Assembly (NCBI RefSeq): GCF_002797375.1
Contig: NZ_KZ454941.1
Span: 802,836 to 849,899 of the forward strand
DNA from: Bacillus sp. FJAT-42315
Lineage (GTDB): Bacteria; Bacillota; Bacilli; Bacillales; Domibacillaceae
Direction of reading: 5' to 3'
Length of the DNA stretch: 47,064 bases
A program made the position numbers and the translations under genes. Positions 30 through 26,876 of this stretch are shown here, one piece after another; within the stretch, counting starts at the first letter, position 1, and the number at the start of each line of letters is the position of its first letter. Under the pieces are notes generated by a model. The model was not told the DNA's origin. It saw only the letters and a list, made by a program, of their open reading frames with translations, and searched no databases.

Positions 30-78
30 TTCTTTGAACAGTCAAAAAAATCTCTGTAGGAGAGTCGCTACGATTGTT

Positions 79-1972: not shown

Positions 1973-2724
1973 AAGTGCAAAGCGTGTCCAAAGTCTATGG
2001 AAGTAAAGCAGTGATTGATCAAGTATCAGTTAATATTCCTAAAGGCAAAATTACTTCGTTTATCGGGCCTAATGGTGCGGGGAAAAGTACGCTTTTATCA
2101 ATGATTAGTCGTCTCATTACGAAAGATGAGGGAGAAATTTTCGTTGATGGAGAAGAAGTAAGCCGAGCGAAAAGTAAAGAGCTGTCTAAGAAAATTGCGA
2201 TATTAAAGCAATCGAATTACTTAAACTTGCGCTTAACTGTACGAGAACTTGTTTCCTTTGGTCGTTTTCCTTACTCGCAAGGAAAGCTAAAGGAAGACGA
2301 TTGGAAGCATGTTGATGAAGCCATTCGCTATATGGAGCTAGAAGATATGCAGCATAAATATCTTGATCAACTAAGTGGTGGACAACGTCAGCGTGCGTTC
2401 ATTGCGATGGTGATCGCTCAAGATACGGAGTATGTCTTGCTAGATGAACCACTCAATAACTTAGATATGAAACATTCTGTCCAAATCATGAAAGTGTTAA
2501 GAAGGTTGACAAATGAGTTAGGCAAAACGGTGATCATTGTTATTCACGATATTAATTTCGCTTCTTGTTATTCCGATTACATTGTCGCTTTAAAAGACGG
2601 CAAAATTGCAAAACAAGGCTCGGTGGATGAGATGATGGATCGCCAAATATTGAAAGACATTTATGAAATGGATATGAACATTGAAACAGTGAATAATTGT
2701 AAAATATGCGTATATTTTAAATAG
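1966..2724 (+). CDS. yclP: Siderophore ABC importer ATPase (YclP/FpbP-like)
   Basis: Cytoplasmic ATPase of the iron-siderophore importer, 252 aa. Walker A is GPNGAGKST (residues 34-42), the signature is LSGGQ (136-140), and Walker B ends with YVLLDEP (Asp160, Glu161), followed by the D-loop NNLD and the H-loop histidine in VIHDINF. All catalytic motifs are intact and the length is normal for the FepC/FhuC class. It overlaps yclO by 7 bp and is followed 12 bp later by the binding protein gene. Confidence 0.93.
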   Translation: MVEVQSVSKVYGSKAVIDQVSVNIPKGKITSFIGPNGAGKSTLLSMISRLITKDEGEIFVDGEEVSRAKSKELSKKIAILKQSNYLNLRLTVRELVSFGRFPYSQGKLKEDDWKHVDEAIRYMELEDMQHKYLDQLSGGQRQRAFIAMVIAQDTEYVLLDEPLNNLDMKHSVQIMKVLRRLTNELGKTVIIVIHDINFASCYSDYIVALKDGKIAKQGSVDEMMDRQILKDIYEMDMNIETVNNCKICVYFK

Positions 2725-2736
2725 GAGTGTAGACAT

Positions 2737-3687
2737 ATGTGGAAAAAATTATCCCTACTGTTGATGACGATGTTATTCGTTGTTGTTGCAGCAGCTTGTA
2801 GTTCAGAAACAAAAGAAGATAAAAAAGCAGAAGAACCAAAGAAAGAAGCAGAAAAAATAACGGTTACTCATGAATTAGGCGAAACAGATGTGCCGAAAAA
2901 CCCAGAAAAAGTCGTTGTTTTTGATTTGGGTACACTTAGCACGTTGGATACATTAAATGTTGAAGTAGCTGGACTTCCGAAAGATGTAGTTCCTGCTTAC
3001 TTATCTAAGTATGAAGATGAAAAATATGAAGGCCTTGGTGGATTAAAAGAGCCTGATTTTGAAAAAATCCATGCGATGAAGCCAGATTTAATTATCATTT
3101 CAGGTCGTCAAGCAGATATGTATGATCAGTTTATGGAAATTGCTCCGACGATTTATTTAGGAGTAGACGAAAAAGATTACATGAATTCTTTTAAGAAAAA
3201 TACAGAAATCGTAGGCCAAATTTTTGGTAAAGAAGAAGAAGTGAAAACAGAATTAGCAAAGGTTGACGCACAAATTCAAGCAGTAAAAGACGTAGCAGCT
3301 AAATCTGGAAAGACTGGCTTAATTGTTTTAGCGAGTGAAGGAGAAATGAGTGCTTACGGACCAGGCTCTCGCTTTGGAATTCTTCATGATGAATTAGGTG
3401 TCAAACCTGCGGATGAAAACATTGACATTTCTAATCACGGTGCAAGTATTTCATTTGAATATATCGTGGAAAAAGATCCAGATTATCTATTCTTAATCGA
3501 CCGTGGTGCAGTCGTCGGTGGAAAAGCTTCTGCTGAACAAGTAGTAGCAAATGATTTATTAAAAAACACAAAAGCAATCAAAGATGACAACGTAGTTTAC
3601 TTAGACGGAAACTACTGGTACCTATCTGGCGGCGGGCTAGGATCTGTCTCTGCGATGGTGAAAGAAGTAGCAGAAGGATTAAAATAA
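2737..3687 (+). CDS. yclQ: Siderophore-binding lipoprotein (YclQ/FpbQ-like)
   Basis: Extracellular substrate-binding lipoprotein, 316 aa, that captures the ferric siderophore and delivers it to the YclNO channel. It has a lysine-containing N-terminus, a hydrophobic core and a lipobox ending at Cys21 (VAAAC), then a charged, lysine/glutamate-rich linker (residues 23-40) typical of Gram-positive lipoproteins. The body has the class III periplasmic-binding-protein pattern with a single long connecting helix around residues 160-185. Last gene of the operon, followed by a strong terminator. B. subtilis YclQ binds petrobactin; that specificity is inferred here. Confidence 0.9.
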   Translation: MWKKLSLLLMTMLFVVVAAACSSETKEDKKAEEPKKEAEKITVTHELGETDVPKNPEKVVVFDLGTLSTLDTLNVEVAGLPKDVVPAYLSKYEDEKYEGLGGLKEPDFEKIHAMKPDLIIISGRQADMYDQFMEIAPTIYLGVDEKDYMNSFKKNTEIVGQIFGKEEEVKTELAKVDAQIQAVKDVAAKSGKTGLIVLASEGEMSAYGPGSRFGILHDELGVKPADENIDISNHGASISFEYIVEKDPDYLFLIDRGAVVGGKASAEQVVANDLLKNTKAIKDDNVVYLDGNYWYLSGGGLGSVSAMVKEVAEGLK

Positions 3688-11066: not shown

Positions 11067-11241
11067 TGTGTTTAATAGAATGAATATCTTTCATTCATTT
11101 TTGTACCCAGTTTGCTTCGTTGACAAACAAACTTTTTGATCCTCGCCATCTCCCTCTAACACGTACTAGCTAAAAACTTCTTTTTTTCTAACAGTTCATG
11201 TCATTGTCTCTGCCTTTTCCAGAAAGTAAGATAATATGTAA

Positions 11242-11261: not shown

Positions 11262-11304
11262 AGAAAATTAAAATGTAAGGGTTTACAAAAAAGGAGTGAA
11301 AAAG

Positions 11305-12813
11305 ATGTTAACTGGTCAAGAGTATTTAGAGAGCTTGAAGGATGGTCGAGCGGTGTATTTGAATGGGGAAAAAATTACGGATGTGACAGAGCACCCGGCT
11401 TACCGTAATTCGGCTCGTTCGATTGCCCGCATGTATGATGCGCTTCATGATCCGGAGATGGGAAAGATTTTGACGACGGAGACGGAATACGGAGACCGAA
11501 CACATAAGTTCTTTAAAACGCCAAAAAGTGCACAAGATTTGTTGGAATCGAGGGATGCGATCGCTCAATGGGCTAGATTGAGCTATGGGTTTATGGGACG
11601 CACCCCTGATTACAAGGCATCATTCACTGCTCATTTAGATGCTTACTCCACATATTACCAAGGATTTGAGAATAGTGCAAAGGCTTGGTACAAAAAAGCG
11701 ACGAAAGATGTGCCGTTTATTAATCACACGATTATTAATCCACAAGTTGATCGCTCCAAGCCGCTTCATGAAAATAAGGATGTTTTTGTTCGCGCAGTCA
11801 AAGAACGGGATGATGGGATTGTCGTTAGTGGCGCGAAGATGGTGGGAACAGCGGCGGCGCTGACGCATTATAATTTCGTTTCCAACTATGGACCGATGGA
11901 TTTAGGAGACGGCGACAAGAGTCATGCGCTTATTTTCTTCGTGCCGATGAATGCGCCGGGCGTGAAAATGATTAGCCGCCAATCGTATGAGCTGCAAGCG
12001 GCAGCAACGGGTTCACCGTATGATTATCCGTTATCGAGTCGCTTTGATGAAAACGATGCGGTCATTGTCCTTGATGATGTCTTTATTCCGTGGGAAGACG
12101 TGTTGACGTATAAAAATGTCGATATTACGAATAACTTTTTCGTGCAAACGGGCTTTTTTAACCGCTTTACGTTCCATGGCTGTACTCGTTTTGCCGTGAA
12201 GCTTGATTTTATGGCTGGGTTGTTATTAAAAGCTACAGAAGCATCAGGTACGAAGCAGTTTAGGGGAGTGCAAGCGAACATTGGTGAGGTACTTGCCTTG
12301 CGCAATATGTTCTGGGGACTTTCGACAGCGATGGCGACCGACCCAGAGTTTGGTATGAATGGAGTCGCGATTCCGAATGGTTTCTATGCGAACTCTTATC
12401 GTGTGTTGGCGCCGATGACATGGGTGCGCGTGAAAAATATTTTTGAACAAGTCGTCGCAGGTGGACTGATTCAGTTGCCTTCGAGTGCGAAAGATTTTTT
12501 AAGTCCAGAGCTTCGTCCGTATTTAGATAAATATTATCGTGGTTCGGGGATTGATGCGGAAGAGCGCGTGAAGTTGATGAAAATGATTTGGGATGCGATT
12601 GGTACAGAGTTTGGAGGACGTCATGAGCTATATGAAGTGAACTATGCCGGTAACCATGAGAACATCCGCTTAGAAGCGTTAAAGCACGCCGAAGGAACAG
12701 GAGCAGCGAATCAATTTAAGTCATTTGTCGATACGGCACTCGCTGATTATGACTTACACGGATGGACGAATTCTGTTTGGCAAGCGTCGGATCAAAAAGT
12801 ACCGGTTAAATAA
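11305..12813 (+). CDS. pheA1: Phenol 2-hydroxylase, oxygenase component (HpaB family)
   Basis: 502 aa FAD-dependent aromatic hydroxylase of the HpaB/PheA class, which adds an ortho hydroxyl to phenol to give catechol using reduced flavin from a partner reductase. Visible are the N-terminal HpaB domain, the GFMGRTPDYKASF substrate-region motif (near residues 96-108), and acyl-CoA-dehydrogenase-like helices to the end. It looks very close to the thermophilic Bacillus/Geobacillus PheA1 phenol hydroxylases. A 4-hydroxyphenylacetate substrate is possible by family, but the downstream catechol meta pathway (no homoprotocatechuate genes) favours phenol. ATG 11305 is preferred because AAGGAGTG sits 6 nt upstream; an in-frame GTG at 11296 lies inside that site. 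Confidence 0.88.
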   Translation: MLTGQEYLESLKDGRAVYLNGEKITDVTEHPAYRNSARSIARMYDALHDPEMGKILTTETEYGDRTHKFFKTPKSAQDLLESRDAIAQWARLSYGFMGRTPDYKASFTAHLDAYSTYYQGFENSAKAWYKKATKDVPFINHTIINPQVDRSKPLHENKDVFVRAVKERDDGIVVSGAKMVGTAAALTHYNFVSNYGPMDLGDGDKSHALIFFVPMNAPGVKMISRQSYELQAAATGSPYDYPLSSRFDENDAVIVLDDVFIPWEDVLTYKNVDITNNFFVQTGFFNRFTFHGCTRFAVKLDFMAGLLLKATEASGTKQFRGVQANIGEVLALRNMFWGLSTAMATDPEFGMNGVAIPNGFYANSYRVLAPMTWVRVKNIFEQVVAGGLIQLPSSAKDFLSPELRPYLDKYYRGSGIDAEERVKLMKMIWDAIGTEFGGRHELYEVNYAGNHENIRLEALKHAEGTGAANQFKSFVDTALADYDLHGWTNSVWQASDQKVPVK

Positions 12814-12851: not shown

Positions 12852-13328
12852 ATGGAAGATCGTCAATTTCGAAATGCGATGGGCAAATTTGCCACAGGTG
12901 TGAATGTAATTTTGACAGAGGTAGAGGGGGATGTGCACGGCATGACGGCCAACGCCTTTATGTCAGTATCGCTAGACCCAAAGCTAGTCGTTATTTCTAT
13001 CGGAGAACGAGCGCAAATGCTCGACAAGATTAAGCAGAGCCAGAAGTTTACCGTTAATATGTTAGCCGCTGATCAACAGGAGCTTTCGATGATCTTTGCT
13101 GGACAGATTAAAGAAAAGCAAGAGGTTGCGTTTGATCGTCTAGCGGATCAGCCTGTCCTTGGCGGAAGTGTGGCCCAAATCACATGTGAAGTGACAGCCG
13201 AGCATGTAGAAGGGGATCATACGTTATTTATTGGTAAAGTAACTGCTATTCAATTAGAAGAAAAAGATCCACTCATTTATTTTAGCGGTCGCTATCGTTC
13301 ATTAATGGAAGAAGTGCCGACGACTTAA
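12852..13328 (+). CDS. pheA2: Flavin reductase component of phenol hydroxylase
   Basis: 158 aa NADH:flavin oxidoreductase of the HpaC/PheA2 family that supplies reduced FAD to the oxygenase. It shows the flavin-reductase split-barrel pattern: an N-terminal FRNAMGKFATGVNVIL, GMTANAFMSVSLDPKLVVISIG (near 34-56), and FTVNMLAADQQE. The conserved C-terminal GDHTLFIGKV includes the usual histidine. Length matches PheA2 (about 160 aa). AAGGAGG precedes ATG 12852, 38 bp after pheA1, so the two are co-transcribed. Confidence 0.88.
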   Translation: MEDRQFRNAMGKFATGVNVILTEVEGDVHGMTANAFMSVSLDPKLVVISIGERAQMLDKIKQSQKFTVNMLAADQQELSMIFAGQIKEKQEVAFDRLADQPVLGGSVAQITCEVTAEHVEGDHTLFIGKVTAIQLEEKDPLIYFSGRYRSLMEEVPTT

Positions 13329-13343: not shown

Positions 13344-14168
13344 TTGAAAACCATTGTTTTAGAGCCACAAAAATTAAGCGAGCTAAAGCGACAACCAGAG
13401 CCTTGTGTCGTTGCTCTCGGATTTTTTGATGGCGTTCATCTCGGTCATCGCCAAGTGATTCATGAAGCAAGAAACATCGCTTGCGAACAGGGTGTGTCGC
13501 TCGCTGTCATGACGTTTTTTCCACATCCGAAAGCAGTGTTATCGAAAGGAAAGCAGCGAGTGGATTATTTAATGCCAGTTACGGAAAAACAACGGATTTT
13601 CAAGGAACTAGGTGTGGATATTTGCTACATTGTTCCTTTCGTTCCGGCGTTTGCTTCCTTGACACCAGAGAGTTTTGTGCAGAACTATTTGCTAGACCTT
13701 GGCGTTCTTCATGCTGTCGCAGGCTTTGACTTTACGTATGGTTGTCGTGGCGAAGGACATATGGATCGGATGAAGATGGATTCTGGCGGCCTTCTTGACG
13801 TAACAAAAGTGGAAAAAGTCGCGTGTCATGGGGAAAAAATTAGCTCCACGCTCATTCGCGAAAAAATCCGCACTGGAGTAGTAGAAGAGATTCCGGCTTG
13901 TTTAGGGGAAGCTTACCGTGTGGAAGGTCGCGTGACAGGCTCAATCATTTTAATGAAGCCTTACTACATGCTGCCTTCCCCTGGGCGGTATGCGATAACA
14001 ATTCACAGTCAAAAGAGGAAGTTGTTGACAGAAGCCATTGTGACGGAAGAGCCGGGGCAAATTTTTTTACCGGATGTGGAAAAGTCGGATTTGATGCAAG
14101 GAGAGTATGTGTCGGTCGAATGGCAACGCTGTTTGTTTAGGGCGAGGGAGGAACTATTGGTTCGGTAA
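13344..14168 (+). CDS. FAD synthetase-like protein, RibF with degenerate kinase half
   Basis: 274 aa. The N-terminal half is an FMN adenylyltransferase: GFFDGVHLGHR (residues 26-36, HIGH-type nucleotidyl motif), FFPHPKAVL, FDFTYGCRGEG and KISSTLIREKI. In RibF proteins a riboflavin-kinase domain with a G-R-T-I-G-F-P-T-A-N motif follows. Here the C-terminal 85 residues lack that motif, so only FMN to FAD conversion is expected. TTG start at 13344 behind AAGGAGGAG. It lies 15 bp after pheA2 inside the operon, which suggests dedicated FAD supply for the hydroxylase. The chromosomal ribF should be elsewhere. Confidence 0.8.
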   Translation: MKTIVLEPQKLSELKRQPEPCVVALGFFDGVHLGHRQVIHEARNIACEQGVSLAVMTFFPHPKAVLSKGKQRVDYLMPVTEKQRIFKELGVDICYIVPFVPAFASLTPESFVQNYLLDLGVLHAVAGFDFTYGCRGEGHMDRMKMDSGGLLDVTKVEKVACHGEKISSTLIREKIRTGVVEEIPACLGEAYRVEGRVTGSIILMKPYYMLPSPGRYAITIHSQKRKLLTEAIVTEEPGQIFLPDVEKSDLMQGEYVSVEWQRCLFRAREELLVR

Positions 14169-14180
14169 GGAGGTATAAAG

Positions 14181-14609
14181 ATGTTTCTTGAGCATAAAAC
14201 GATTTCTAGGAGTTTAGCAACTAGAATGCTAGAAGCGGCTGTGGATAAGGCGGAAGAGCTTGGGGTGGCTGTTAATGTGGCAGTTGTGGATAATGGTGGG
14301 CATTTAATCGCTTTTACGAAAATGGATCACGCTCCATTGTTAAGTGCCGAAATTGCTCAAAACAAAGCGTACACAGCGGCGGCATTCGGTTTGCCTACAC
14401 ATGAGTGGTATGAATTGATTAAAGATGAACCATCGTTAAAAACAGGAATTGTCCACACGAATCGTCTCACGGTTTTTGGCGGGGGATATCCGATTCGTTG
14501 CGGCGATGCTCTTGCTGGCGGGATTGGTGTAAGCGGCGGGACGTTAGCGGAAGATCAAGCTTGTTGTGAAGCGGCCTTACTACAAATCAAGGAGGAGGTA
14601 AATAGATGA
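14181..14609 (+). CDS. GlcG/HbpS-family (DUF336) protein
   Basis: 142 aa. It has the GlcG/HbpS profile: an N-terminal helix, then VAVNVAVVDNGGHLIAF, KAYTAAAFG and a glycine-rich C-terminal GGGYPIRCGDALAGGIGVSGG. Proteins of this family bind heme or cobalamin-like tetrapyrroles or act as accessory proteins in diol and aromatic pathways; the role here is not established. ATG at 14181 with AAGGAGG. It overlaps the dioxygenase gene by 4 bp (ATGA), which argues for a stoichiometric or assembly link with that enzyme. Confidence 0.8.
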   Translation: MFLEHKTISRSLATRMLEAAVDKAEELGVAVNVAVVDNGGHLIAFTKMDHAPLLSAEIAQNKAYTAAAFGLPTHEWYELIKDEPSLKTGIVHTNRLTVFGGGYPIRCGDALAGGIGVSGGTLAEDQACCEAALLQIKEEVNR

Positions 14610-15520
14610 GTAGCATTGTGCGGATTGGACGATTGGAGCTTAGAGTGATGGATTTGGAGGAGTCGGTGAAATATTATACCGACATTATCGGCTTGCAGGA
14701 AACAGGCCGTGATGGCGATCGCGTTTATTTAAAGGCATGGGATGAGTACGATCACCACAGCATTATTTTACAAAAATCCGATTCAGCAGGCATGGATCAT
14801 ATGGCGTTTAAAGTGAAGGATGTGTATGAGCTAGAGAAGCTGGAATTTAAAATTGAGCAATTTGGCTGTAAGTTGACTCGTATCCCACACAATACTCGGT
14901 TAGCGGAAGGGCAAGCGGTCCGCTTTACGATTCCAACGGGGCATGAAGTGGAATTATACACAGAAATTGAACAAGTCGGATCAGGGACAGGGAATATCAA
15001 TCCCCACCCTTGGCCAGATGGATTAAAAGGAATCGCTCCTCACCGTTTAGACCATGCGTTATTAACAGGGGATGATTTAGAATCGGCGACGCGCTTTTTT
15101 ACTGAAGTGCTTGATTTCCACCAAACGGAAAAAATCGTCACGGTTGATGGTGAAGTAATGCTCGGAAGCTTCCTAGCGGCGACGAATAAAGCGCATGATA
15201 TCGCCTTTGTCAAAGGACCAGATGCGAAGTTTCATCATGCAGGATTTTATGTGGATAACTGGTATGAAGTGTTAAAGGCGGCGGATATTTTAACGAAAAA
15301 TGAAGTGCCGGTGGAGGTGACACCTACTCGTCACGGCATTACTCGCGGGCAGACGGTGTATTTCTTTGATCCATCGGGCAACCGTAATGAAGCCTTTGCA
15401 AGCGGTTATATTTCTTACTCCGATTTTCCAACGATTACGTGGACAGAAGATAAAATCGGGACAGGGATTTTCTATCATCGTCGTGAAATGCTCGAATCAT
15501 TCTCGAAAGCATTAACGTAA
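14606..15520 (+). CDS. pheB: Catechol 2,3-dioxygenase (extradiol, type I)
   Basis: 304 aa Fe(II) enzyme that opens catechol to 2-hydroxymuconic semialdehyde. It has two vicinal-oxygen-chelate domains. Iron ligands by alignment with XylE are His150 (HRLDHALL), His211 (KFHHAGF) and Glu262 (GNRNEAF), each 3 positions before XylE His153, His214 and Glu265. The active-site region PTRHGITRGQTVYFFDPSGNRNE is well kept. Length is very close to XylE (307). It is translationally coupled to the upstream GlcG-like gene. Confidence 0.95.
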   Translation: MSSIVRIGRLELRVMDLEESVKYYTDIIGLQETGRDGDRVYLKAWDEYDHHSIILQKSDSAGMDHMAFKVKDVYELEKLEFKIEQFGCKLTRIPHNTRLAEGQAVRFTIPTGHEVELYTEIEQVGSGTGNINPHPWPDGLKGIAPHRLDHALLTGDDLESATRFFTEVLDFHQTEKIVTVDGEVMLGSFLAATNKAHDIAFVKGPDAKFHHAGFYVDNWYEVLKAADILTKNEVPVEVTPTRHGITRGQTVYFFDPSGNRNEAFASGYISYSDFPTITWTEDKIGTGIFYHRREMLESFSKALT

Positions 15521-15535
15521 AAAGGAGGCAAAACA

Positions 15536-16300
15536 ATGACGGTTCAACAACGAGCGATCGCGCTGCTTGAGGCAGAAAAAACGAAGCAGCCGATCGACCC
15601 ATTTCCGCAGATGACGGTGGAGGAAGCGTATCACACACAATTAGAGCAAATTCGCCAAAAAGTCGAAGCGGGCGCGAAAGTAGTCGGCAAAAAAATCGGG
15701 TTAACGAGCAAAGTGATGCAGGAAATGTTTCAAGTGAATGAGCCAGATTACGGTCATTTACTCGATACGATGATGCATTTGGATGGAACGGAGGTGTCAT
15801 TGAACGATTTTATTCAACCGAAGCTGGAATTTGAAATTGCCTTTGTGCTGAAAAAAGATTTAAAAGGCCCAGGTGTGACGATGCTCGATGTGATTGATGC
15901 TACTGATTATATTGTGCCAGCGATTGAAATCATTGATAGTCGCATTAAAGATTGGAACATTCGCTTTGAAGATACGGTTGCGGATAATGGTTCCTCCGCT
16001 GGGGCGATTATCGGCGGCAAGCCAACCAAAATCGACCAAGTAAATCTTTCCTACATCGGGATGGCCGTTTATAAAAATGGCACATACTTTGATTCAGCTG
16101 CGGGTGCTGCAGTGATGGGGAATCCAGCGCGAGCGGTGGCATGGCTAGCGAATGCTCTCGGTGAATACGATATTTCTCTTCATGCCGGTGAAGTGATTTT
16201 ATCAGGCGCTTTATCAAAAGCGGTTCCGGTCGAAGTTGGTGATCAATGGACGGTTGAATTTGACCATATCGGCTCAGTATCAGCCACATTTCAATCATAG
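15536..16300 (+). CDS. dmpE: 2-oxopent-4-enoate hydratase (DmpE/XylJ type)
   Basis: 254 aa. Adds water to 2-hydroxypenta-2,4-dienoate to give 4-hydroxy-2-oxovalerate. Fumarylacetoacetate-hydrolase-like fold with [11 protein letters not shown], an [12 protein letters not shown] metal-site motif and [21 protein letters not shown]. The last motif, with IKDW, is the DmpE version; the paralogue at 18225 has YRNFNF as in DmpH. It lies 15 bp after the dioxygenase gene and shares the operon. Hydratase versus decarboxylase is decided by motif resemblance and gene order, so there is some risk of swapped labels. Confidence 0.85.
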
Positions 16301-16311
16301 GGGGTGCAAGG

Positions 16312-17193
16312 ATGGCAAGATGTAAAGTAGGCATTATCGGTTCTGGAAATATCGGAACCGATTTAATGTATAAAATTGAACGAAGTCATTATTTACAGAT
16401 GAGCGTCATGGTGGGAATCGACCCGGAATCAGAAGGGTTAAAAAAAGCGCGTGAACGAGGGTATGAAACGATTGATTCAGGCATTGATGGGTTGCTAGAA
16501 AGACCAGAATTAGTCGATATCGTGTTTGATGCAACAACAGCTAAAGCCCATCACGTCCATAGTGAAAAGCTGATTGCGCTAGGAAAAAAAGTGGTCGACT
16601 TAACGCCAGCAGCGATTGGGCCATTTACTGTACCACCAGTGAATCTTCAAGCTCATCTGTCTGAAGTAAATGTCAATATGGTTACTTGCGGTGGGCAAGC
16701 GACGATTCCAATTGTAGCGGCCATTGGTCAAGCGGTACCGGTTGATTATGCAGAAATTGTCGCAACGGTCGCAAGTAAAAGTGCCGGACCAGGCACAAGA
16801 GCCAATATTGATGAGTTTACGCGTACGACATCGAAAGCGATCGAACAGGTCGGAGGAGCCAAAAAGGGAAAAGCGATTATTATTTTAAATCCAGCAGAGC
16901 CGCCGATTATTATGCGCGATACAATTCATGCATTAGTGACAGAGGAAGGAAAAGAAGCGGAAATTATCGCTTCGATTGAACAAATGGTTGAGACGGTGCA
17001 GCAATATGTGCCGGGTTATCGCATGCGTGGCAAACCGCAAATCGAAGGCAAAAAGGTAACGGTTTTTATTGAAGTAGAAGGGGCTGGTGATTTCTTTCCT
17101 CCTTATTCAGGGAATTTAGATATTATGACAGCCGCCGCCGCTAAAGTGGGCGATGAGATTGCGAAGCAGTTGACAGCTGCCATGTTGAAGTAG
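16312..17193 (+). CDS. dmpF: Acetaldehyde dehydrogenase, acylating (DmpF type)
   Basis: 293 aa. Converts acetaldehyde and CoA to acetyl-CoA with NAD, taking acetaldehyde channelled from the aldolase. Rossmann motif GSGNIGTDL (residues 10-18), catalytic Cys126 in [10 protein letters not shown], and [16 protein letters not shown] in the catalytic domain are present. The ATG at 16312 follows GGGGTGCAAGG. 11 bp after dmpE and 9 bp before dmpG, the usual F-G neighbour pair whose products form a complex. Confidence 0.95.
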
Positions 17194-17202
17194 AGGAGGA
17201 GA

Positions 17203-18213
17203 ATGATGACAAAAAGAGACATTGAACTAGTAGACGTCACGTTAAGAGATGGCAGTCATGCGATGCGCCATGCGTTTACCGAGGAGCAAGTACGAGCGAC
17301 GGCAAGAGGGCTCGATCAAGCGGGCATCCGCTACTTTGAAGTATCACATGGCGATGGATTAGGTGGTTCTTCTTTGCAGTACGGATTTTCTAAAGTCGAT
17401 GAATTGAAGTTAATTGAAGCGGCAGCTGACGAATGCCAACAGGCGGAAGTGTCTGTATTGCTTTTACCAGGAATCGGGTTGAAAGAGGATTTGCAGGAGG
17501 CTGTGAAAGCTGGAGCCAAAATGGTTCGTGTCGCGACACATGTGACGGAAGCAGATGTGGCCCGCCAACATATTCAGCTCGGTCGTGAACTCGGATTGAA
17601 AACGGTCGGTTTCTTAATGATGGCTCATATGGCACCGATGGAAAAGCTGGTAGAGCAAGCGAAGTTATTTGAAAGCTATGGCGCAGAAATTGTCTATGCG
17701 ACAGATTCGGCTGGGGCGCTTCTTCCTCATGAAGTGAAGGAGCGGGTTGGCGCTTTAAGGGATGCTCTTCAGTGTGATATCGGATTCCATGGCCATAATA
17801 ATTTATCAATGGCAATGGCAAACACCGTAGCCGCGGTAGAAGCGGGTGCCACGTATGTAGATGGCAGTTTGCGCTGTCTTGGAGCGGGCAGTGGAAATAC
17901 CCAAACCGAAGTGATGGCGGCTGTGTTTGATCGCATGAATATTGAAACAGGAGTTGATCTGTATCAAGTGATGGATGTCGCTAATGAAGTGGTCGCGCCG
18001 TTTATGCCTCGCCCGCAAGAAATCACGGGATCAAGCTTAATTATGGGTTACTCTGGTGTGTACTCTAGCTTTCTTCTACACACGAATGAAGCGGCACGCA
18101 AATTCAACGTTGATGAACGAGATATTTTAGTTGAGCTCGGTCGCATGCAAGCGATCGGTGGTCAAGAAGACTTAATTTATGATATCGCTGCTCAAATTGC
18201 GGCTACGAAATAG
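17203..18213 (+). CDS. dmpG: 4-hydroxy-2-oxovalerate aldolase (DmpG type)
   Basis: 336 aa divalent-metal aldolase that splits 4-hydroxy-2-oxovalerate into pyruvate and acetaldehyde. HMGL-like TIM barrel with VTLRDGSHAMRH (catalytic Arg, metal Asp and His near residues 15-22) and the metal-binding HGHNN near residue 195, followed by the C-terminal communication domain that docks DmpF. Start at ATG 17203, with ATG 17206 as an equivalent alternative behind GAGGAGGAG. Confidence 0.95.
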   Translation: MMTKRDIELVDVTLRDGSHAMRHAFTEEQVRATARGLDQAGIRYFEVSHGDGLGGSSLQYGFSKVDELKLIEAAADECQQAEVSVLLLPGIGLKEDLQEAVKAGAKMVRVATHVTEADVARQHIQLGRELGLKTVGFLMMAHMAPMEKLVEQAKLFESYGAEIVYATDSAGALLPHEVKERVGALRDALQCDIGFHGHNNLSMAMANTVAAVEAGATYVDGSLRCLGAGSGNTQTEVMAAVFDRMNIETGVDLYQVMDVANEVVAPFMPRPQEITGSSLIMGYSGVYSSFLLHTNEAARKFNVDERDILVELGRMQAIGGQEDLIYDIAAQIAATK

Positions 18214-18224
18214 GGGGGAAACAA

Positions 18225-19022
18225 ATGAAATCTGTAACCGCTGAATGGATGGATCAAGTAGCGGAAGAGTTGTTTGAAGCGGAAAGCGAAGCACAAGAAG
18301 TCGATAAAATGACGGCTCGCTTTCTAGAATTAAATGCTGAAAATGCTTACGAGATTCAAAGAAAACTAATCAAGCTGAAAGAAGAAAGAGAACAAACGAG
18401 ACGTTCCGGATATAAATTAGGATTAACGAGCCGAGCGAAGCAAGAAATGATGGGCGTCCACGAACCTACATATGGCGTCCTGCTAGAAAATATGCAGCTA
18501 TTTGAAGGGGAACCAGTCTCCATCTCCCCATTTATTCACGCCAAAATTGAGCCGGAAATTGCCTTTGTTTTTGACAAGGAAGTGAAAGGCTCTGCGATTA
18601 CGACAGCAGCCATTTTAGAGGCGACCGCTTACATTGCTCCAGCAATGGAGATTATTGATAGTCGCTATCGTAATTTTAATTTTACGCTTGCAGATGTGAT
18701 CGCCGATAATTCTTCTTCTTCCCGCTATATTTTCGGTGAAAAGCTGTATCGTCCGACTGAGGTGGATTTGCGGTTAATGGGGATGGTGTTTAAGAAAAAT
18801 GGTGAAATCGAGTCGACGAGTGCCGGGGCTTCGGTGATGGGACATCCAGCGCGTGCCGTTGCTTGGATGGCGAATAAATTAGCGGAAACGGGTCAATCGA
18901 TTCAGCCAGGAGATGTCGTATTGTCAGGTGCTTTAGCGGGAGCGGTAACGATTGCTCCGGGCGATCATTTCTCCGTTCACTTTGATGGGATTGGATCATT
19001 GGATATTACATTTAAGGAGTGA
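18225..19022 (+). CDS. dmpH: 2-oxo-3-hexenedioate (4-oxalocrotonate) decarboxylase (DmpH/XylI type)
   Basis: 265 aa, paralogue of the hydratase at 15536. Decarboxylates 2-oxo-3-hexenedioate to 2-hydroxypentadienoate. It has YKLGLTSRAKQEMMGVHEPTYGVL, KIEPEIAFVF and EIIDSRYRNFNFTLADVIADN, the form seen in DmpH/XylI. Length (265) also fits DmpH, which forms a complex with DmpE. Start ATG 18225 after AGGGGGG; 7 bp before the tautomerase gene, its pathway predecessor. Confidence 0.87.
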   Translation: MKSVTAEWMDQVAEELFEAESEAQEVDKMTARFLELNAENAYEIQRKLIKLKEEREQTRRSGYKLGLTSRAKQEMMGVHEPTYGVLLENMQLFEGEPVSISPFIHAKIEPEIAFVFDKEVKGSAITTAAILEATAYIAPAMEIIDSRYRNFNFTLADVIADNSSSSRYIFGEKLYRPTEVDLRLMGMVFKKNGEIESTSAGASVMGHPARAVAWMANKLAETGQSIQPGDVVLSGALAGAVTIAPGDHFSVHFDGIGSLDITFKE

Positions 19023-19029
19023 AAAAAAG

Positions 19030-19233
19030 ATGCCCTTCATTCAAGTGAATATATTGCAAGGTCGTCCGCCTGAAAAAAAAGAGCGACTCATTGAAGAAGT
19101 GACATGGAAAGTTTCAGAGATTTTGGAATGTCCACAAGAGACGATTCGCGTCATGATTAATGAAATGCCGCCGGAGCATTGGGGCATTGCTGGTGAATCG
19201 GTGAAAAAGCGACGGGAAAAGGAGGAACAATGA
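19030..19233 (+). CDS. dmpI: 4-oxalocrotonate tautomerase
   Basis: 67 codons, a typical length. After removal of Met the N-terminal proline (PFIQVNI) is the catalytic base, and the Arg in GRPPEKK corresponds to the substrate-binding arginine. Converts 2-hydroxymuconate to 2-oxo-3-hexenedioate. ATG 19030 is required for the N-terminal proline; longer in-frame starts run back into dmpH and are rejected. It ends exactly one base before the ATG of the next gene, so the two are coupled. Confidence 0.93.
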   Translation: MPFIQVNILQGRPPEKKERLIEEVTWKVSEILECPQETIRVMINEMPPEHWGIAGESVKKRREKEEQ

Positions 19234-20709
19234 ATGGAAAACGTACAAACGAAAGTGAAGGAAGTTAAACTGTTCATTGATGGTGAATATGTGGAATCAG
19301 GAAGCGGCTCCCTGTTTGAAGTGAAAAATCCAGCGACGCAGCAAGTAATCGCTCGCGTGCATGAAGCGACGAAGGAAGATGTTGATCGCGCGTGTCGTGC
19401 CGCTCGTCGTGCCTTTGAAGAAGGACCTTGGCGAACGATGCCACTAGCCGAACGCTGTGCGAAAATTCGCCGGATGGCAGAAATTATCATCGAAAGAAAA
19501 GAAGAGTTGGCTCGTTTAGAAGCATTAGATGTCGGTAAACCCTATCCAGTGGCGTTAGAGCGAGAAATTCCACGCGCAGCGCACAACCTTAGTTTCTTCG
19601 CTGATTTTATGGAACAGCAAGGCGGAGAAGTGTATCCGATGGGGGAAGAATATTTAAATTATACGCGCTATGAGCCAGTCGGCGTGGCGGCACTGATTAC
19701 GCCATGGAATTTGCCGTTTATGTTAACGACGTGGAAGTTGGGGCCATGTCTTGCGGCCGGGAATACAGCGGTCATTAAACCAGCGGAAATTACGCCGATG
19801 ACGGTGTCTCTTCTTGGAGAAATTGCTAAAGAAGCGGGCATTCCAGATGGTGTGATCAATGTCGTACAAGGCTTCGGCCCAGGGTCAGCCGGAGAATTTA
19901 TGACGACGCATCCAGAAGTCGACCTTATTTCTTTTACTGGTGAAACATCGACAGGGAAAGCGATTATGAAAAATGGCGCTGATTCATTGAAGAAGGTTGC
20001 TTTCGAGCTTGGTGGAAAAGCGGCAAATATCGTCTTTGAAGATGCTAATTTAGACAAAGCCATTCCAGTTTCGATCCAAGCGGCCTTTTTAAACTCTGGG
20101 CAAGTGTGTCTAGCAGGGTCAAGAATTTTAGTGCAACGCTCGATCTTCAAAGAATTTGTCGATCGCTTTAAAGAGGCGGCTCTTGCGTTAAAAGTTGGTG
20201 ATCCGCAAGATTCGACCACAAATATGGGACCCGTTGTGAGCGAGGAGCATTATCGCAAAGTGACGAGTTACTTAGACATTGCCAAGGCAGAAAATGCCGA
20301 GCTTGTTTGTGGCGGTGCTCGCCCTGAACTGTCGGATGATTTAAAGGATGGCTACTATTTAGAGCCAACCGTTTATATTCAAGAAAATCCGCAAGCACGT
20401 ATTTGTCAGGAGGAAATTTTCGGCCCGATCGTGACGCTTATTCCGTTTGATACAGAAGAAGAGGCGCTGGAAATTGCCAATAACACCGATTACGGATTAA
20501 ACGGCGTTGTTTGGACGGACAATTTACAGCGGGCTCATCGAATCTCTCATCACGTTCGCGCCGGCACGATCTGGGTTAACTGTTGGTTTGTCCGCGATTT
20601 ACGTGCGCCGTTCGGTGGGTTTAAAAAGAGCGGCATCGGTCGTGAAGGCGGTCATCATAGCTTGGAGTTTTTCTCAGAAGCGAAGAATATTTGTATTGCG
20701 CTACAATAG
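19234..20709 (+). CDS. dmpC: 2-hydroxymuconic semialdehyde dehydrogenase (DmpC/XylG type)
   Basis: 491 aa NAD-dependent aldehyde dehydrogenase that oxidises the ring-cleavage product to 2-hydroxymuconate. ALDH motifs present are TPWNLPF, FTGETSTG, catalytic Glu in FELGGKAANIVF and catalytic Cys292 in NSGQVCLAG. Its last position in the operon differs from dmp/xyl operons, where it follows the dioxygenase gene directly. No DmpD/XylF hydrolase is present, so ring-cleavage products must go through this dehydrogenase branch. Confidence 0.92.
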   Translation: MENVQTKVKEVKLFIDGEYVESGSGSLFEVKNPATQQVIARVHEATKEDVDRACRAARRAFEEGPWRTMPLAERCAKIRRMAEIIIERKEELARLEALDVGKPYPVALEREIPRAAHNLSFFADFMEQQGGEVYPMGEEYLNYTRYEPVGVAALITPWNLPFMLTTWKLGPCLAAGNTAVIKPAEITPMTVSLLGEIAKEAGIPDGVINVVQGFGPGSAGEFMTTHPEVDLISFTGETSTGKAIMKNGADSLKKVAFELGGKAANIVFEDANLDKAIPVSIQAAFLNSGQVCLAGSRILVQRSIFKEFVDRFKEAALALKVGDPQDSTTNMGPVVSEEHYRKVTSYLDIAKAENAELVCGGARPELSDDLKDGYYLEPTVYIQENPQARICQEEIFGPIVTLIPFDTEEEALEIANNTDYGLNGVVWTDNLQRAHRISHHVRAGTIWVNCWFVRDLRAPFGGFKKSGIGREGGHHSLEFFSEAKNICIALQ

Positions 20710-20715
20710 AAAGGG

Positions 20716-20755
20716 TGAGCAAAGTGCTGAAAAGCACTTTGCTCATTCCTAATTT
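20716..20755 (+). terminator. Strong GNRA-loop hairpin after dmpC
   Basis: TGAGCAAAGTGCT and AGCACTTTGCTCA form a perfect 13-bp stem with a GAAA tetraloop. The T-run is weak and delayed (TTCCTAATTTTT). It may be a leaky terminator or an RNA-stabilising/processing element separating the enzyme genes from the ferredoxin-regulator pair. Confidence 0.7.
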
Positions 20756-20800
20756 TTGAATATTTCCGAATAATCAATTAAAATAAAGAGGTGGTTATTT

Positions 20801-21061
20801 TTGAAAGCGTTTACTAAAAATTTTACCGTTCAGTGTCGTGATACAGAATCGTTATTGAAGACGGCTTTGAAGCAGCAAGTGAATATTCCTTACGCCTGTA
20901 CAAAAGGTGGATGTGGCATGTGTAAGGTGAAAATCACAGATGGGCAATTTCGCCTTGGTCTATGCTCCAAGCGTGCTTTAACCGATGAAGAGCGGGCAGC
21001 AGGCTATGTGCTTGCTTGTCAAACGTATCCACAAAGCAGCACGACAATCATCCTTGCCTGA
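20801..21061 (+). CDS. XylT-like 2Fe-2S ferredoxin
   Basis: 86 aa plant-type ferredoxin. Cluster ligands are Cys33, Cys38, Cys41 and Cys73 (C-x4-C-x2-C-x31-C). In TOL-type pathways XylT/DmpQ re-reduces the oxidised iron of catechol 2,3-dioxygenase, and the location here fits this role. Start is TTG at 20801 with AAAGAGGTGG upstream. 91 bp after dmpC, beyond the hairpin, and 26 bp before the regulator gene. Confidence 0.85.
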   Translation: MKAFTKNFTVQCRDTESLLKTALKQQVNIPYACTKGGCGMCKVKITDGQFRLGLCSKRALTDEERAAGYVLACQTYPQSSTTIILA

Positions 21062-21087: not shown

Positions 21088-22941
21088 ATGATGGAGACCG
21101 AACAATCTTTTTGGAAGCAGCTAAATATTACGTGCAGGAATGGAATGGTGTATGCAGATGATGCCCGTTCCATTCTTATTTCTATTGAGGCGTTTGGAAC
21201 ATTGAGAAGAGATTTAATTAAAAATATCGGACTCGACCGTATGAAGGCCTTCTTTTTTCGCTATGGCTGGCAAATTGGCTGGCAGGATGGAGAAAAAGCG
21301 CTTGCCGCTGCTTTTGAGACGTTGGAGGAGCAGGTGAAATACGGTCCAGTGCTTCACTCCTTAAAAGGGCATGTGCAAGCGTCGATGGATCACATTCGGA
21401 TTGTTGAGCAGGCAGGAAGAGTCCAGCAGTTTCATATGGAGGGCGTTTGGCGACATTCGTATGAAGCTGTTGAGCATGTCACGCATTTAGGTATGTCTGA
21501 TGTGCCTGTCTGTTTTACGTTAACAGGCTATGCGAGCGGCTATGTCACGCGTCTTGTTGGTGACACGGTCATTTTTAAGGAAACGCAATGTATTGGAACA
21601 GGAGCGGAAGACTGTCGCTGGGTCGGTAAGCTCGCTTCGGAATGGGGAGAGGAAGCGGCGGAGCAAATCGGGTATTGCCAGGAACAGCCGATTTTACGAG
21701 AGTTAGAGGTTACGAATGAAAAGTTGCTAGAAGAGAAGAATCATTTGGCAAAAGTGATGCTCGTTCATAAGATGCTGACAGAAGAAATTATTAAAGGCAA
21801 CCACCTTGATTCGATTGCGCAAGTGATGTATGAACAAACGGAGATCCCTGTGTTAATTGAAAACATTCACCACCAGCCGCTCGCTTATCAAGGAATGGAA
21901 CAAGAGCGGTTGCAGCAGGAGCAGCAAGAATTGATCGATCGAGCAGTTCGATTAGAGAAAACGAAATGGCTGCAAACTGCAAGTTGCCGTCGCTTAATGT
22001 CTCCTGTATTTTTACAAGGAAAGAAAGTCGGGTATTGTTCTTTCTTTTTAGAAAAAAATCAAGTCGCTAACGATGAAATTTTGACGATGTTTATTGAACG
22101 AATGTGTTCTGTTTGTTCGTTATTATTACTGAATGAAAAAACAAAATTTGAATCGACTGAACGAATGAAGGGGCGTTTTTTGGACGAGATTTTGAGTGGC
22201 AGGTATGCAGATGAGCAAGAAATTCTTAAACGAGCTAGCCTTATTTCATTCGATTTATCTAAAGCCTATTATTTAATCGTCGTTCAGTATGAAGTGGCAG
22301 CGAAAGATATAAAAAAAGAACTCACATTCTATGAACAAATGCTAGAAACAACGGCTAGTTTTTTTAAAGAAGCAGGATTAAACGCTCTTGTCGGTCAGCG
22401 TGATTCGGCGATTATTGTGCTTTTGTCTGAGCCGGGTGGGGATGTATCGGCCCTTTGCCATGCCTTTTTAAAGGAGCTATCGAATCGCTGTTTCAAAGTG
22501 GAATGTCAAGCGGGGATTAGCTTGAGAAATGATCAGATTCTTCATGCGCAAGAAGCATACGAAGAAGCGTTAACGGCGCTAAGAATGGCGTCGCGGCACA
22601 TGCCGGTCGTCAGTTTTGAATCGCTTGGGATCGTCGGCATTTTAATTAACAGCAACAATGAAGCGGCTGTCGAGAAGATTGCGAAATATACGCTTGGAAA
22701 ACTATATGATAAACTGGATGAGAAAAAAATCGAGCTGTTAAATACGTTGTATATTTTTTTGCTCAATGGTGGAAATTTGGAGGCAACGGCGGACGAGCTG
22801 GCCTTGTCTGTTAGCGGTTTACGCTATCGAATGAGCAAAATTGATCAAATGCTAGATGTGAGCTTGCGAGATGCAGAAGCAACTTTTCAGCTTTTGCTGT
22901 CCTTGAAATCTCTGAAATCGATTGGCAAGCTCGATTGGTGA
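21088..22941 (+). CDS. Phenol-responsive regulator: XylR_N + V4R + PucR-type HTH
   Basis: 617 aa. Residues about 10-115 resemble the XylR/DmpR N-terminal sensor and about 120-180 the V4R domain. The zinc site of the MopR/DmpR sensor is kept with exact spacing: Cys142, Glu165, Cys168, Cys176 (C-x22-E-x2-C-x7-C). Trp121 and His90 are candidate phenol-contact residues. A middle region (about 220-510) is GGDEF-like as in PucR/CdaR, and the C-terminus (about 555-612) is the PucR HTH with LEATADELALSVSGLRYRMSKI. There is no AAA+ sigma-54 domain, unlike DmpR. Probably the operon activator; ATG 21088 after AAAGGTGAG. Confidence 0.85.
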   Translation: MMETEQSFWKQLNITCRNGMVYADDARSILISIEAFGTLRRDLIKNIGLDRMKAFFFRYGWQIGWQDGEKALAAAFETLEEQVKYGPVLHSLKGHVQASMDHIRIVEQAGRVQQFHMEGVWRHSYEAVEHVTHLGMSDVPVCFTLTGYASGYVTRLVGDTVIFKETQCIGTGAEDCRWVGKLASEWGEEAAEQIGYCQEQPILRELEVTNEKLLEEKNHLAKVMLVHKMLTEEIIKGNHLDSIAQVMYEQTEIPVLIENIHHQPLAYQGMEQERLQQEQQELIDRAVRLEKTKWLQTASCRRLMSPVFLQGKKVGYCSFFLEKNQVANDEILTMFIERMCSVCSLLLLNEKTKFESTERMKGRFLDEILSGRYADEQEILKRASLISFDLSKAYYLIVVQYEVAAKDIKKELTFYEQMLETTASFFKEAGLNALVGQRDSAIIVLLSEPGGDVSALCHAFLKELSNRCFKVECQAGISLRNDQILHAQEAYEEALTALRMASRHMPVVSFESLGIVGILINSNNEAAVEKIAKYTLGKLYDKLDEKKIELLNTLYIFLLNGGNLEATADELALSVSGLRYRMSKIDQMLDVSLRDAEATFQLLLSLKSLKSIGKLDW

Positions 22942-24961: not shown

Positions 24962-26866
24962 AAGGGGCTGTCCAGAAAGTCAGTGAAAACTGACTTTCTG
25001 TGACAGCCCTTCTTCATTTATGGAAAAAATCGCACAAAAAAATCGCCCTTTATAGTAAAATGAAGTTACCACACAACATCTCAAAAAGGAGCGATTTTTT
25101 ATGAGCAATCCAAAGATTACTACTGCCCATTATAGCACGCAAATGAGCCTTCCTCTAGAGGTAAAAGAAGAAACTTCCGTTTCTAAGCGAACGTTTTCTC
25201 CCACATTTAAACCGTATGATCCCTCTCAAAGCCAAGCAATCCTAGACATTGAAACTTGGATTCCTGAACATCATATCGCACGGGTGATTGATGAAATGAT
25301 CGAGGCGATCCCCGATGAGCAATTATTTGCCTATTATTCAGGTGGCGGTCGAAGCTCGTACCATCCGAAAATGATGTTGAAAGTGATTTTGTATGGGTAT
25401 TCCCAAAAAGTCTACTCGTGCCGTGGCATTGAAAAGCTGACAAAAGAAAACCTTCCGACGATGTGGTTAGCTGCGATGCAACAACCCGATTTCCGCACGA
25501 TTAATGAATTTCGAGGACAACGTATGAAAGCGATGATGGACGAATTGTTTGAAACGATGATTCTGAAGTTAATCGAGGACAAGTATATCACGATGGAAAA
25601 CTATTTCTTGGATGGCACGAAAATCGAAGCCAACGCCAATAAATACTCCTTTGTATGGAAAAAATCCACCACACGTTTTGAAGAAAAACTCAAAGAAAAG
25701 ATCGACCAGACGCTTCAACACATTGAAGAAGTGACCAAATCGGAATCAGATATCCCTCAAGAAGCGACGCCTGAACAGTTAGAAAACCTAGCGAATCAAC
25801 TAGAGAAGGAAGTCCATCAACTAACAGAAGAAATCGACCAAGAACCGGATGTTCAAATACGGAAAGAAAAGCGAAAGCAACGTAGCGCCTTAAGGAAACC
25901 GATGAAGCTGATTCGCATAGATTTCTTGCCTCGACTCGCCAAATACAAGGAACAAAACGCCACATTTGGTGATCGAAATAGTTATTCGAAAACCGACCCG
26001 GATGCGACGTTTATGCGTATGAAAGAAGATCACATGAAAAATGGTCAGTTGAAACCTGGATATAATGTGCAAATGGCGACAGAACATCAATTCATCTTAT
26101 TCTATACGATTCATCAACGACCAACGGATACACGCTGTTTCATTCCCCACTTGGAGAAATTGGCTTCCACGAATTTACCGATGCCCCAAACGGTGGTCGC
26201 CGATGCGGGGTATGGAAGTGAGGAAAATTATGTGTATGCGATTGGGGGAGAAAAAGAGCCGCGCTTTAACTATTTGATTCCGTATGCGACTTATATGAAA
26301 GAACAGGAACGAAGCTATAAAAAGGACATCCGAAACGCCAAAAACTGGACCTATGAGGAACAAGACGATCAATTTATTTGCCCAAACGGTCGTCGAGTGA
26401 AATTCTTGAAATACATGGACAAGAAAAACCGATCAGGTTACGTACAAAGCTATAAAGTGTACGAATGTGAAGACTGTTCCAGTTGCCCGTTGAAGGAGCG
26501 ATGCACAAAAGCGAAAGGTAATCGTCAAGTCCATTGGAATACGATTTTCGAAGAAATGAAAGCCAAGGCCAAAACAGCCCTTGAATGTGAGGAGAACGCC
26601 ACGATCTATGCTCGACGAAAAGTCGAAGTCGAAAGTGCGTTCGGTCACGTCAAGGGCAATCGGTCGTTCCGCAGATTTTCCTTGCGGGGGATCGACAAGG
26701 TACACGCGGAATTCGGGATTGTGGCTTTAGCCCACAACCTCCTGAAAGTAGCCGGCATCCGCCAGCTACTTTCAGAGAAGTATCGGAAACCAACAAAAAG
26801 AGGTGGAGAAAAACGACTCGTTTTTCTCCACCTCTTTTATTTTAGGGACTTATTAGACAGCTCCTT
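24962..26866 (+). mobile_element. IS1182-family insertion sequence
   Basis: The left terminal sequence GGGGCTGTCCAGAAAGTCAG (from 24964) and the right end, reverse complement GGAGCTGTCTAATAAGTCCC (to 26864), match at 14 of 20 positions, and both are preceded by AA. One transposase gene lies inside. A hairpin is formed by the left end and its inverse (24964-25010). I see no clear target-site duplication. The boundary is therefore approximate. Confidence 0.75.
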
Positions 26867-26876
26867 TTTTGGATGA
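25101..26876 (+). CDS. IS1182-family transposase
   Basis: 591 aa DDE transposase. The N-terminal DUF772-like region includes FETMILKLIEDKYI, with a charged helical linker at about 205-270. The C-terminal DDE_Tnp_1_6-like part has CPLKERCTKAKGNRQ and ESAFGHVKGNRSFRRF. All regions are in one frame without stops. Start ATG 25101 behind AAAGGAGCG. The frame runs through the right terminal repeat and about 12 bp into flanking DNA, so the native stop may be lost or is supplied by the target. Confidence 0.92.
   Translation: MSNPKITTAHYSTQMSLPLEVKEETSVSKRTFSPTFKPYDPSQSQAILDIETWIPEHHIARVIDEMIEAIPDEQLFAYYSGGGRSSYHPKMMLKVILYGYSQKVYSCRGIEKLTKENLPTMWLAAMQQPDFRTINEFRGQRMKAMMDELFETMILKLIEDKYITMENYFLDGTKIEANANKYSFVWKKSTTRFEEKLKEKIDQTLQHIEEVTKSESDIPQEATPEQLENLANQLEKEVHQLTEEIDQEPDVQIRKEKRKQRSALRKPMKLIRIDFLPRLAKYKEQNATFGDRNSYSKTDPDATFMRMKEDHMKNGQLKPGYNVQMATEHQFILFYTIHQRPTDTRCFIPHLEKLASTNLPMPQTVVADAGYGSEENYVYAIGGEKEPRFNYLIPYATYMKEQERSYKKDIRNAKNWTYEEQDDQFICPNGRRVKFLKYMDKKNRSGYVQSYKVYECEDCSSCPLKERCTKAKGNRQVHWNTIFEEMKAKAKTALECEENATIYARRKVEVESAFGHVKGNRSFRRFSLRGIDKVHAEFGIVALAHNLLKVAGIRQLLSEKYRKPTKRGGEKRLVFLHLFYFRDLLDSSFFG
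26798..26842 (+). terminator. Hairpin inside the transposase 3' end
   Basis: AAAAGAGGTGGAGAAAAACGA and its inverse (about 18 bp perfect) flank a 2-nt loop and are followed by a T-rich stretch. It sits within the final codons of the transposase, just before the right terminal repeat. Confidence 0.6.

Follow-up and report, generated by a model that had tools for sequence, protein, structure and literature searches.

How can a phenol sensor of the kind known from MopR, DmpR and XylR control transcription when it is joined to a PucR-type helix-turn-helix (HTH) instead of a sigma-54 module? This question is raised by a gene of Bacillus sp. FJAT-42315, which lies in a window (the whole stretch of DNA analysed) of 47,064 nucleotides on contig NZ_KZ454941.1. 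The gene, at 21088..22941 on the + strand, encodes a PheR-like regulator of 617 amino acids, with position and length as in an earlier sequence-only reading of this DNA. The protein probably activates transcription in response to phenol, as a one-component regulator of the PheR kind, and would act at a sigma-A promoter without an ATP-driven step. The sensor fold, the anchoring residues, the lack of an AAA+ module, the adjoining phenol meta-cleavage cluster and a conserved sigma-A-type promoter support this reading. Activation by phenol at sigma-A promoters had already been proposed for the gene, and anatomy, context and promoter conservation favour the proposal; from them we infer the phenol response, the positive sign of control and the binding to the promoter.

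Domain Architecture of the Regulator

The regulator was analysed with Pfam, an AlphaFold2 model, Foldseek and VIA-align. It comprises a V4R phenol sensor (residues 1–200), a linker helix (202–235), a GAF-like core (about 236–325), a long helix (329–369), a degenerate GGDEF-like domain (370–500) and a PucR HTH (545–611). Four Pfam families match above their gathering cut-offs, namely XylR_N at residues 9–103 (E-value 1.8e-20), V4R at 123–179 (5.3e-11), GGDEF_2 at 370–500 (6.4e-15, 55.8 bits against a cut-off of 24.5) and the C-terminal HTH_30 at 550–607 (6.9e-14, 51.8 bits against 27). The top NCBIfam model is that of the phenol regulator MobR, which matches over its sensor part at residues 8–217, followed by AdeR at residues 320–607, both below cut-off. 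A comparison with solved structures gave MopR (7e-35), DmpR/CapR (7.2e-34) and PoxR (1.7e-29), all aligned inside residues 1–221; together with XylR_N and V4R, these matches bear out the assignment of the N-terminal sensor to the XylR/DmpR/MopR kind. Structure prediction confirmed the sensor fold (Foldseek, VIA-align) and brought to light the GAF-like domain that separates sensor and GGDEF-like part (model residues about 212–360, VIA-align on the AlphaFold2 model). The sequence-only reading had overlooked this domain, while its GGDEF-like part and PucR HTH are upheld by Pfam. The GGDEF-like part is degenerate, and an active diguanylate cyclase is unlikely, since the GGDEF/GGEEF motif occurs in 0/67 aligned proteins, the window regulator included.

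Zinc Site and Phenol Pocket of the Sensor

Residue equivalences were counted along an alignment of the regulator to the MopR structure 5kbe. C142, E165, C168 and C176 align with MopR C155, E178, C181 and C189, with spacings of 23, 3 and 8 in both proteins, just as had been claimed in the sequence-only reading. W121, which had been put forward as a phenol-contact residue, indeed aligns with MopR W134 (DmpR W128), and its partner H90, which had been missed, aligns with MopR H106 (DmpR H100), the second residue at the phenol hydroxyl. It has been reported that His100 and Trp128 of DmpR contact the phenol hydroxyl and that the toluene/xylene-responsive XylR carries Tyr where DmpR has His100 (PMC7264223, as far as the available part of that paper goes). 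Correspondingly, the His100 column holds Tyr in XylR of pWW0 and His in the window regulator and in all full-length PucR-type rows except L089. Six of the eight placed DmpR pocket residues are identical in the window regulator, the His/Trp pair being joined by the equivalents of Phe122, Tyr155, Tyr159 and Phe170; in addition, DmpR Val113 is replaced by Ile103. The column of window residue 163, equivalent to DmpR Phe170, holds Phe or Tyr in some relatives from Bacilli and Val, Ala, Thr or Ile in others, a variation that might possibly encode effector size.

The zinc ligands are invariant (67/67 aligned proteins) and the His/Trp pair is retained in 66/67, L089 being the exception; the Trp is not strictly invariant, as a DmpR-type plasmid protein (L156) has Leu there. 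These counts bear on the idea that the sensor is a relic and that the real input enters through the GAF-like domain, a second potential ligand domain. Such retention speaks against it, as does the mean column conservation, which is higher in the sensor (0.53) than in the GAF-like part (0.36), and a relic sensor appears highly improbable.

Absence of a Sigma-54 Output Module

The sequence-only reading held that the AAA+ module is absent, and the search for one in the middle region agrees. The Pfam scan of the regulator contained neither Sigma54_activat nor any other AAA+ family, and no AAA+ appears in the family lists of the survey set of 76 proteins, which consists of the window protein, 71 proteins from family and class surveys, L004 and three plasmid proteins (L045–L047). 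G[AS][FY]TGA, the loop of sigma-54 activators, was found in 0/76 of these proteins versus 10/10 sigma-54-type controls; this wider pattern was used because the exact word GAFTGA occurs in only 4/10 controls. The Fis-type HTH_8 remained below cut-off on the regulator (E-value 0.024, 14.8 bits against 22), inside the HTH_30 match. An AAA+ domain hidden in the middle is thus ruled out by the Pfam scan, the model comparison and the missing loop. The idea that the output was swapped because the host lacks sigma-54 was also rejected.

Promoter Region and Proposed Mechanism

A sigma-A-type promoter, TTGTCT-N17-TAAGAT, is predicted for the catabolic cluster at 11204..11232 (+ strand). Its spacing-17 core, TTG(N3)-N17-TA(N3)T, lies upstream of pheA1 in 9/10 genomes, once per region, and in the tenth (L052) the −10 element reads CATTAT. 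The conservation footprint is stronger promoter evidence than this count. Across the window and three congeners, identity is 43/50 over the 50 bp that precede the −35 element and 4/50 over the 50 bp before these, values that become 27/50 and 0/50 when a fifth genome is added; it is 25/29 over the promoter core and 11/16 just behind it. As a yardstick, the fourfold sites identical in the same four genomes number 16/60 in pheA2, 66/187 in the regulator gene and 82/202 in pheA1. Within the conserved 50 bp, CTAACA stands twice in direct orientation, at 11156 and, 32 bp further on, at 11188; these repeats form a candidate operator (11156..11193, + strand), and the conserved block starts at about the first of them. 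The genome contains three CTAACA pairs that end in G and leave a gap of 23–28, one of which has the gap found upstream of pheA1; taken by itself, the repeat pair is a weak operator candidate.

The same region bears on the sign of control, which is not set by anatomy. The regulator could be a phenol-sensing repressor, whose effector-free dimer would sit on the DNA until phenol releases it. The V4R-carrying EtpR of A. aromaticum is labelled a repressor in the accessible part of PMC10715001, and the conservation of the promoter core itself raises the standing of this alternative slightly. Against it, the conserved block extends far upstream of the −35 element, and this element, TTGTCT, is weak; both features are usual for an activated promoter, although they are not decisive. 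Repression is distinctly unlikely.

On the preferred reading as an activator, the regulator would work as a dimer whose linker would shift when the sensor binds phenol or a simple alkylphenol, and this change would travel through the GAF-like part and then the GGDEF-like part to the pair of HTHs. The dimer would then bind the conserved CTAACA repeats, which lie a short way upstream of the weak catabolic −35 element, and recruit RNA polymerase with ordinary sigma-A, without any step driven by ATP. The ferredoxin gene (fdx) and the regulator gene form a pair behind a strong hairpin with a candidate promoter of its own, so that expression of the regulator could precede induction. This terminator-like hairpin of 16 pairs (20713..20748, + strand) separates fdx from the semialdehyde dehydrogenase gene and is followed by the promoter-like match TTGAAT-N17-TAAAAT (20756..20784, + strand). 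By eye, a similar stem is present in close congeners and absent in L053; TAAAAT is found in 5/6 aligned sequences, again not in L053. Terminator-like hairpins are overall near chance level (15 found, 12.4 expected). Hairpin and promoter-like site speak for an at least partial separation of the predicted fdx–regulator unit from the cluster.

It may also be proposed that the V4R phenol sensor is portable and, in Bacillota, wired by default to an ATPase-less sigma-A chain, with the GAF-like domain as a second, metabolic input. This proposal is tentative and somewhat doubtful; if true, the phenol genes would be on only when phenol and the right cell state are both sensed.

The Neighbouring Phenol Meta-Cleavage Cluster

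The genes upstream of the regulator, all on the + strand, form a phenol meta-cleavage cluster in which only catechol 2,3-dioxygenase (C23O), acetaldehyde dehydrogenase and the aldolase pass NCBIfam equivalog cut-offs, the remaining names being given by best model or Pfam only. It begins with an HpaB-type flavin monooxygenase taken as phenol 2-monooxygenase (PheA1, 11305..12813) and a flavin reductase taken as its reductase component (PheA2, 12852..13328). The likely start of pheA1 is the ATG at 11305, which is preceded by AAGGAG; the GTG at 11296, given in the list of open reading frames (ORFs), falls within the likely ribosome-binding region. These are followed by an FAD synthetase-like protein (13344..14168), an HbpS/GlcG-like protein (14181..14609), C23O (14606..15520, TIGR03211), a member of the 2-oxopent-4-enoate hydratase family (15536..16300, DmpE best, below its cut-off), acylating acetaldehyde dehydrogenase (16312..17193, TIGR03215) and 4-hydroxy-2-oxovalerate aldolase (17203..18213, TIGR03217). 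The cluster continues with a member of the 4-oxalocrotonate decarboxylase/hydratase family (18225..19022, DmpH best, below its cut-off), a 4-oxalocrotonate tautomerase-type protein of 67 amino acids (19030..19233, Pfam Tautomerase, E-value 2e-21) and 2-hydroxymuconic semialdehyde dehydrogenase (19234..20709, best NCBIfam model, below its cut-off). A plant-type 2Fe-2S ferredoxin with a TTG start (fdx, 20801..21061, Fer2, E-value 4.5e-20) lies directly upstream of the regulator, and a ferredoxin is also the last gene before the regulator on the phe plasmid of Parageobacillus thermoglucosidasius. Elsewhere in the window, judged by eye from translations only, a transposase-like ORF (591 amino acids, 25101–26876) lies slightly downstream of the cluster, and siderophore-type ABC transporter genes (two permeases, an ATPase and a binding lipoprotein) occupy positions 34–3687.

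Weighing of the Evidence

Several observations weigh against a phenol-responsive activator at a sigma-A promoter. The AlphaFold2 model of the regulator has a predicted template modelling score of only 0.53, and its domain arrangement is therefore not fixed by the model. In the pocket, there is one clear change, DmpR Phe93 to V83, and the counterpart of DmpR Tyr90 could not be placed in the alignment. At least one match to the promoter core occurs in 38–47% of shuffles when any of three spacings is allowed, and in 13–19% with spacing 17 alone (five regions tested in each case). Promoter-like matches are overall at chance level, with 23 found and 20.2 expected; the ten genomes are related, and the 9/10 count by itself is moderate. 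Because core matches are common in shuffles and the genomes are related, the claim of a sigma-A promoter rests on conservation, and here the sharp upstream edge of the conserved block could partly be a rearrangement boundary. Finally, a −24/−12-like site with 2 mismatches, equalled by 3% of shuffles, lies upstream of pheA1 at 11101–11116, and confidence in the sigma-A reading was lowered slightly because of it; the site lacks the GG, lies outside the conserved block, and is found in the window only, not being retained in congeners. GG-N10-GC cores occur in 4/10 pheA1 upstream regions (the best, in L118, with 3 mismatches), the window's not being among them, as none was found in the 300 bases searched upstream of its pheA1; in the other nine regions, the best −24/−12-like sites have 3 or 4 mismatches.

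The change to V83 would also suit an effector other than phenol, such as a substituted phenol, catechol, a hydroxyphenyl acid or a pathway product. PheA1 points the same way, scoring best with 4-hydroxyphenylacetate 3-monooxygenase models of NCBIfam, though below cut-off. On the other side stand the agreement with DmpR at six of eight placed pocket residues and the scores within the cluster, where C23O is above its cut-off and the 3,4-dihydroxyphenylacetate dioxygenase model below its own. A different effector is considered unlikely, and phenol is preferred.

Distribution among Relatives

In genome surveys, which are samples and not a census, XylR_N was found in 9/24 genomes of the family, 44/398 of the class and 7/398 drawn from the phylum. 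Among the 76 aligned survey-set proteins, HTH_30 is present in 70, GGDEF_2 in 70 and AAA+ in none, and the joining of this sensor to PucR is usual among the sampled Firmicutes relatives. Of the six without HTH_30, three are, judged by length, short or truncated (L097, L099 and the second ORF at L103), and the others are L114, L116 and L117. These last three are Bacilli proteins of 337–356 amino acids with weak or borderline XylR_N and no zinc set; STAS matches occur in three survey-set members, and L114, scanned singly, carries STAS. The ORF at L097:8977-9714, with XylR_N and V4R in only 246 amino acids, lies near a PheA1, C23O and GlcG-like cluster (G329) and may be a broken or split copy, since similarity to the window regulator continues past the ORF. 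Beyond the class, five genomes yielded nine matches, and eight of these sequences were examined: five full-length proteins have XylR_N, V4R, HTH_30 and GGDEF_2 (one GGDEF_2 below cut-off) and lack AAA+, and three others are short or cut. A one-off chimera or assembly join is ruled out, since congeners carry the regulator gene at 88–95% identity and HTH_30 is so widely present in the set.

At least one of seven marker enzymes was found at 54 of the 67 Bacilli loci around XylR_N genes, versus 0/9 and 0/3 in controls, and PheA1, C23O, aldolase or acetaldehyde dehydrogenase at 48/67, with the proviso that some contigs end early and that matches at 30% may be paralogues. The thirteen loci without markers are L057, L073, L074, L076, L078–L080, L082, L088, L089, L103, L110 and L111. 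In the sensor tree, one branch (100/100) splits 69 PucR-type from 10 sigma-54-type rows; the tree has no root, draws its sigma-54 rows solely from plasmids and includes several long rows, and is therefore silent on which output is older.

Comparison with Known Phenol Regulators

The DmpR sensor is thought to restrain an ATPase (PMC7264223, available part). The same sensor on an ATPase-less protein separates its role from that of AAA+ and makes two outputs comparable for one input; it suggests how sigma-54 could be dispensed with in the switching of Gram-positive phenol operons, and provides sigma-A hosts with a family of phenol sensors. The domain join noted in the sequence-only reading is real and less novel than implied, as a published relative, PheR, had been overlooked; regulators of this kind are widespread and have already been published in the form of an uncharacterised gene. 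The present analysis contributes a dissection of the domains, the GAF-like part included, both members of the His/Trp anchoring pair, a rule that covers the phylum as sampled, and a candidate promoter and operator at precise positions.

PheR, of 642 amino acids, was named in 2008 on plasmid pGGO1 of Geobacillus stearothermophilus DSM 6285. According to the available part of PMC2590616, its gene lies inside the phe operon and is co-transcribed (RT-PCR, reverse transcription polymerase chain reaction), its sub-domains are significantly unlike DmpR and XylR, the control of Gram-positive phenol operons is mostly unknown, and the word PucR is absent. The comparison was made via the P. thermoglucosidasius counterpart L045 (NZ_AP025622), not the PheR record DQ146476. 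L045 likewise has 642 amino acids, directly follows a ferredoxin gene in a meta-cleavage cluster with the published gene order, and agrees with the window regulator in its four Pfam domains and their order, at 34.9% identity. Whereas the PheR gene is on a plasmid within an operon, the window gene is on a 3.57-Mb contig (C1), last in its cluster and behind the hairpin and promoter-like site. PMC8696081, describing the locus of Duffner 2000, also reports a gene labelled pucR at PtPL, the phenol locus on the P. thermoglucosidasius chromosome. The set in its legend, hpaB, sgcE6, ribF, glcG, dmpB, meta-pathway genes, praC, dmpC, ddhD and pucR, is close to the window's set and order, with pucR compared by label only; the legend also has dmpD, not found in the window, and other neighbours. 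In its available part, PMC8696081 labels plasmid and chromosomal phenol-locus genes pucR, purine catabolism regulatory protein, equates the plasmid locus with the 2008 locus, and mentions neither XylR nor PheR. Both halves, PheR and pucR, are thus already in print under separate names, and a literature search, with most subscription papers outside its coverage, returned no paper joining XylR_N or V4R with PucR.

Members of the AdeR/PucR family (structures Rv2242 and BAD_0249) match the C-terminal half only, the V4R phenol sensor being extra in the window regulator. MopR, DmpR (CapR), PoxR and XylR share with it the sensor with the zinc set and the His/Trp positions. Unlike them, the window regulator has no AAA+, no G[AS][FY]TGA loop and no conserved −24/−12 site, and carries the GAF-like, GGDEF-like and PucR HTH parts in place of the sigma-54 module of MopR and DmpR.
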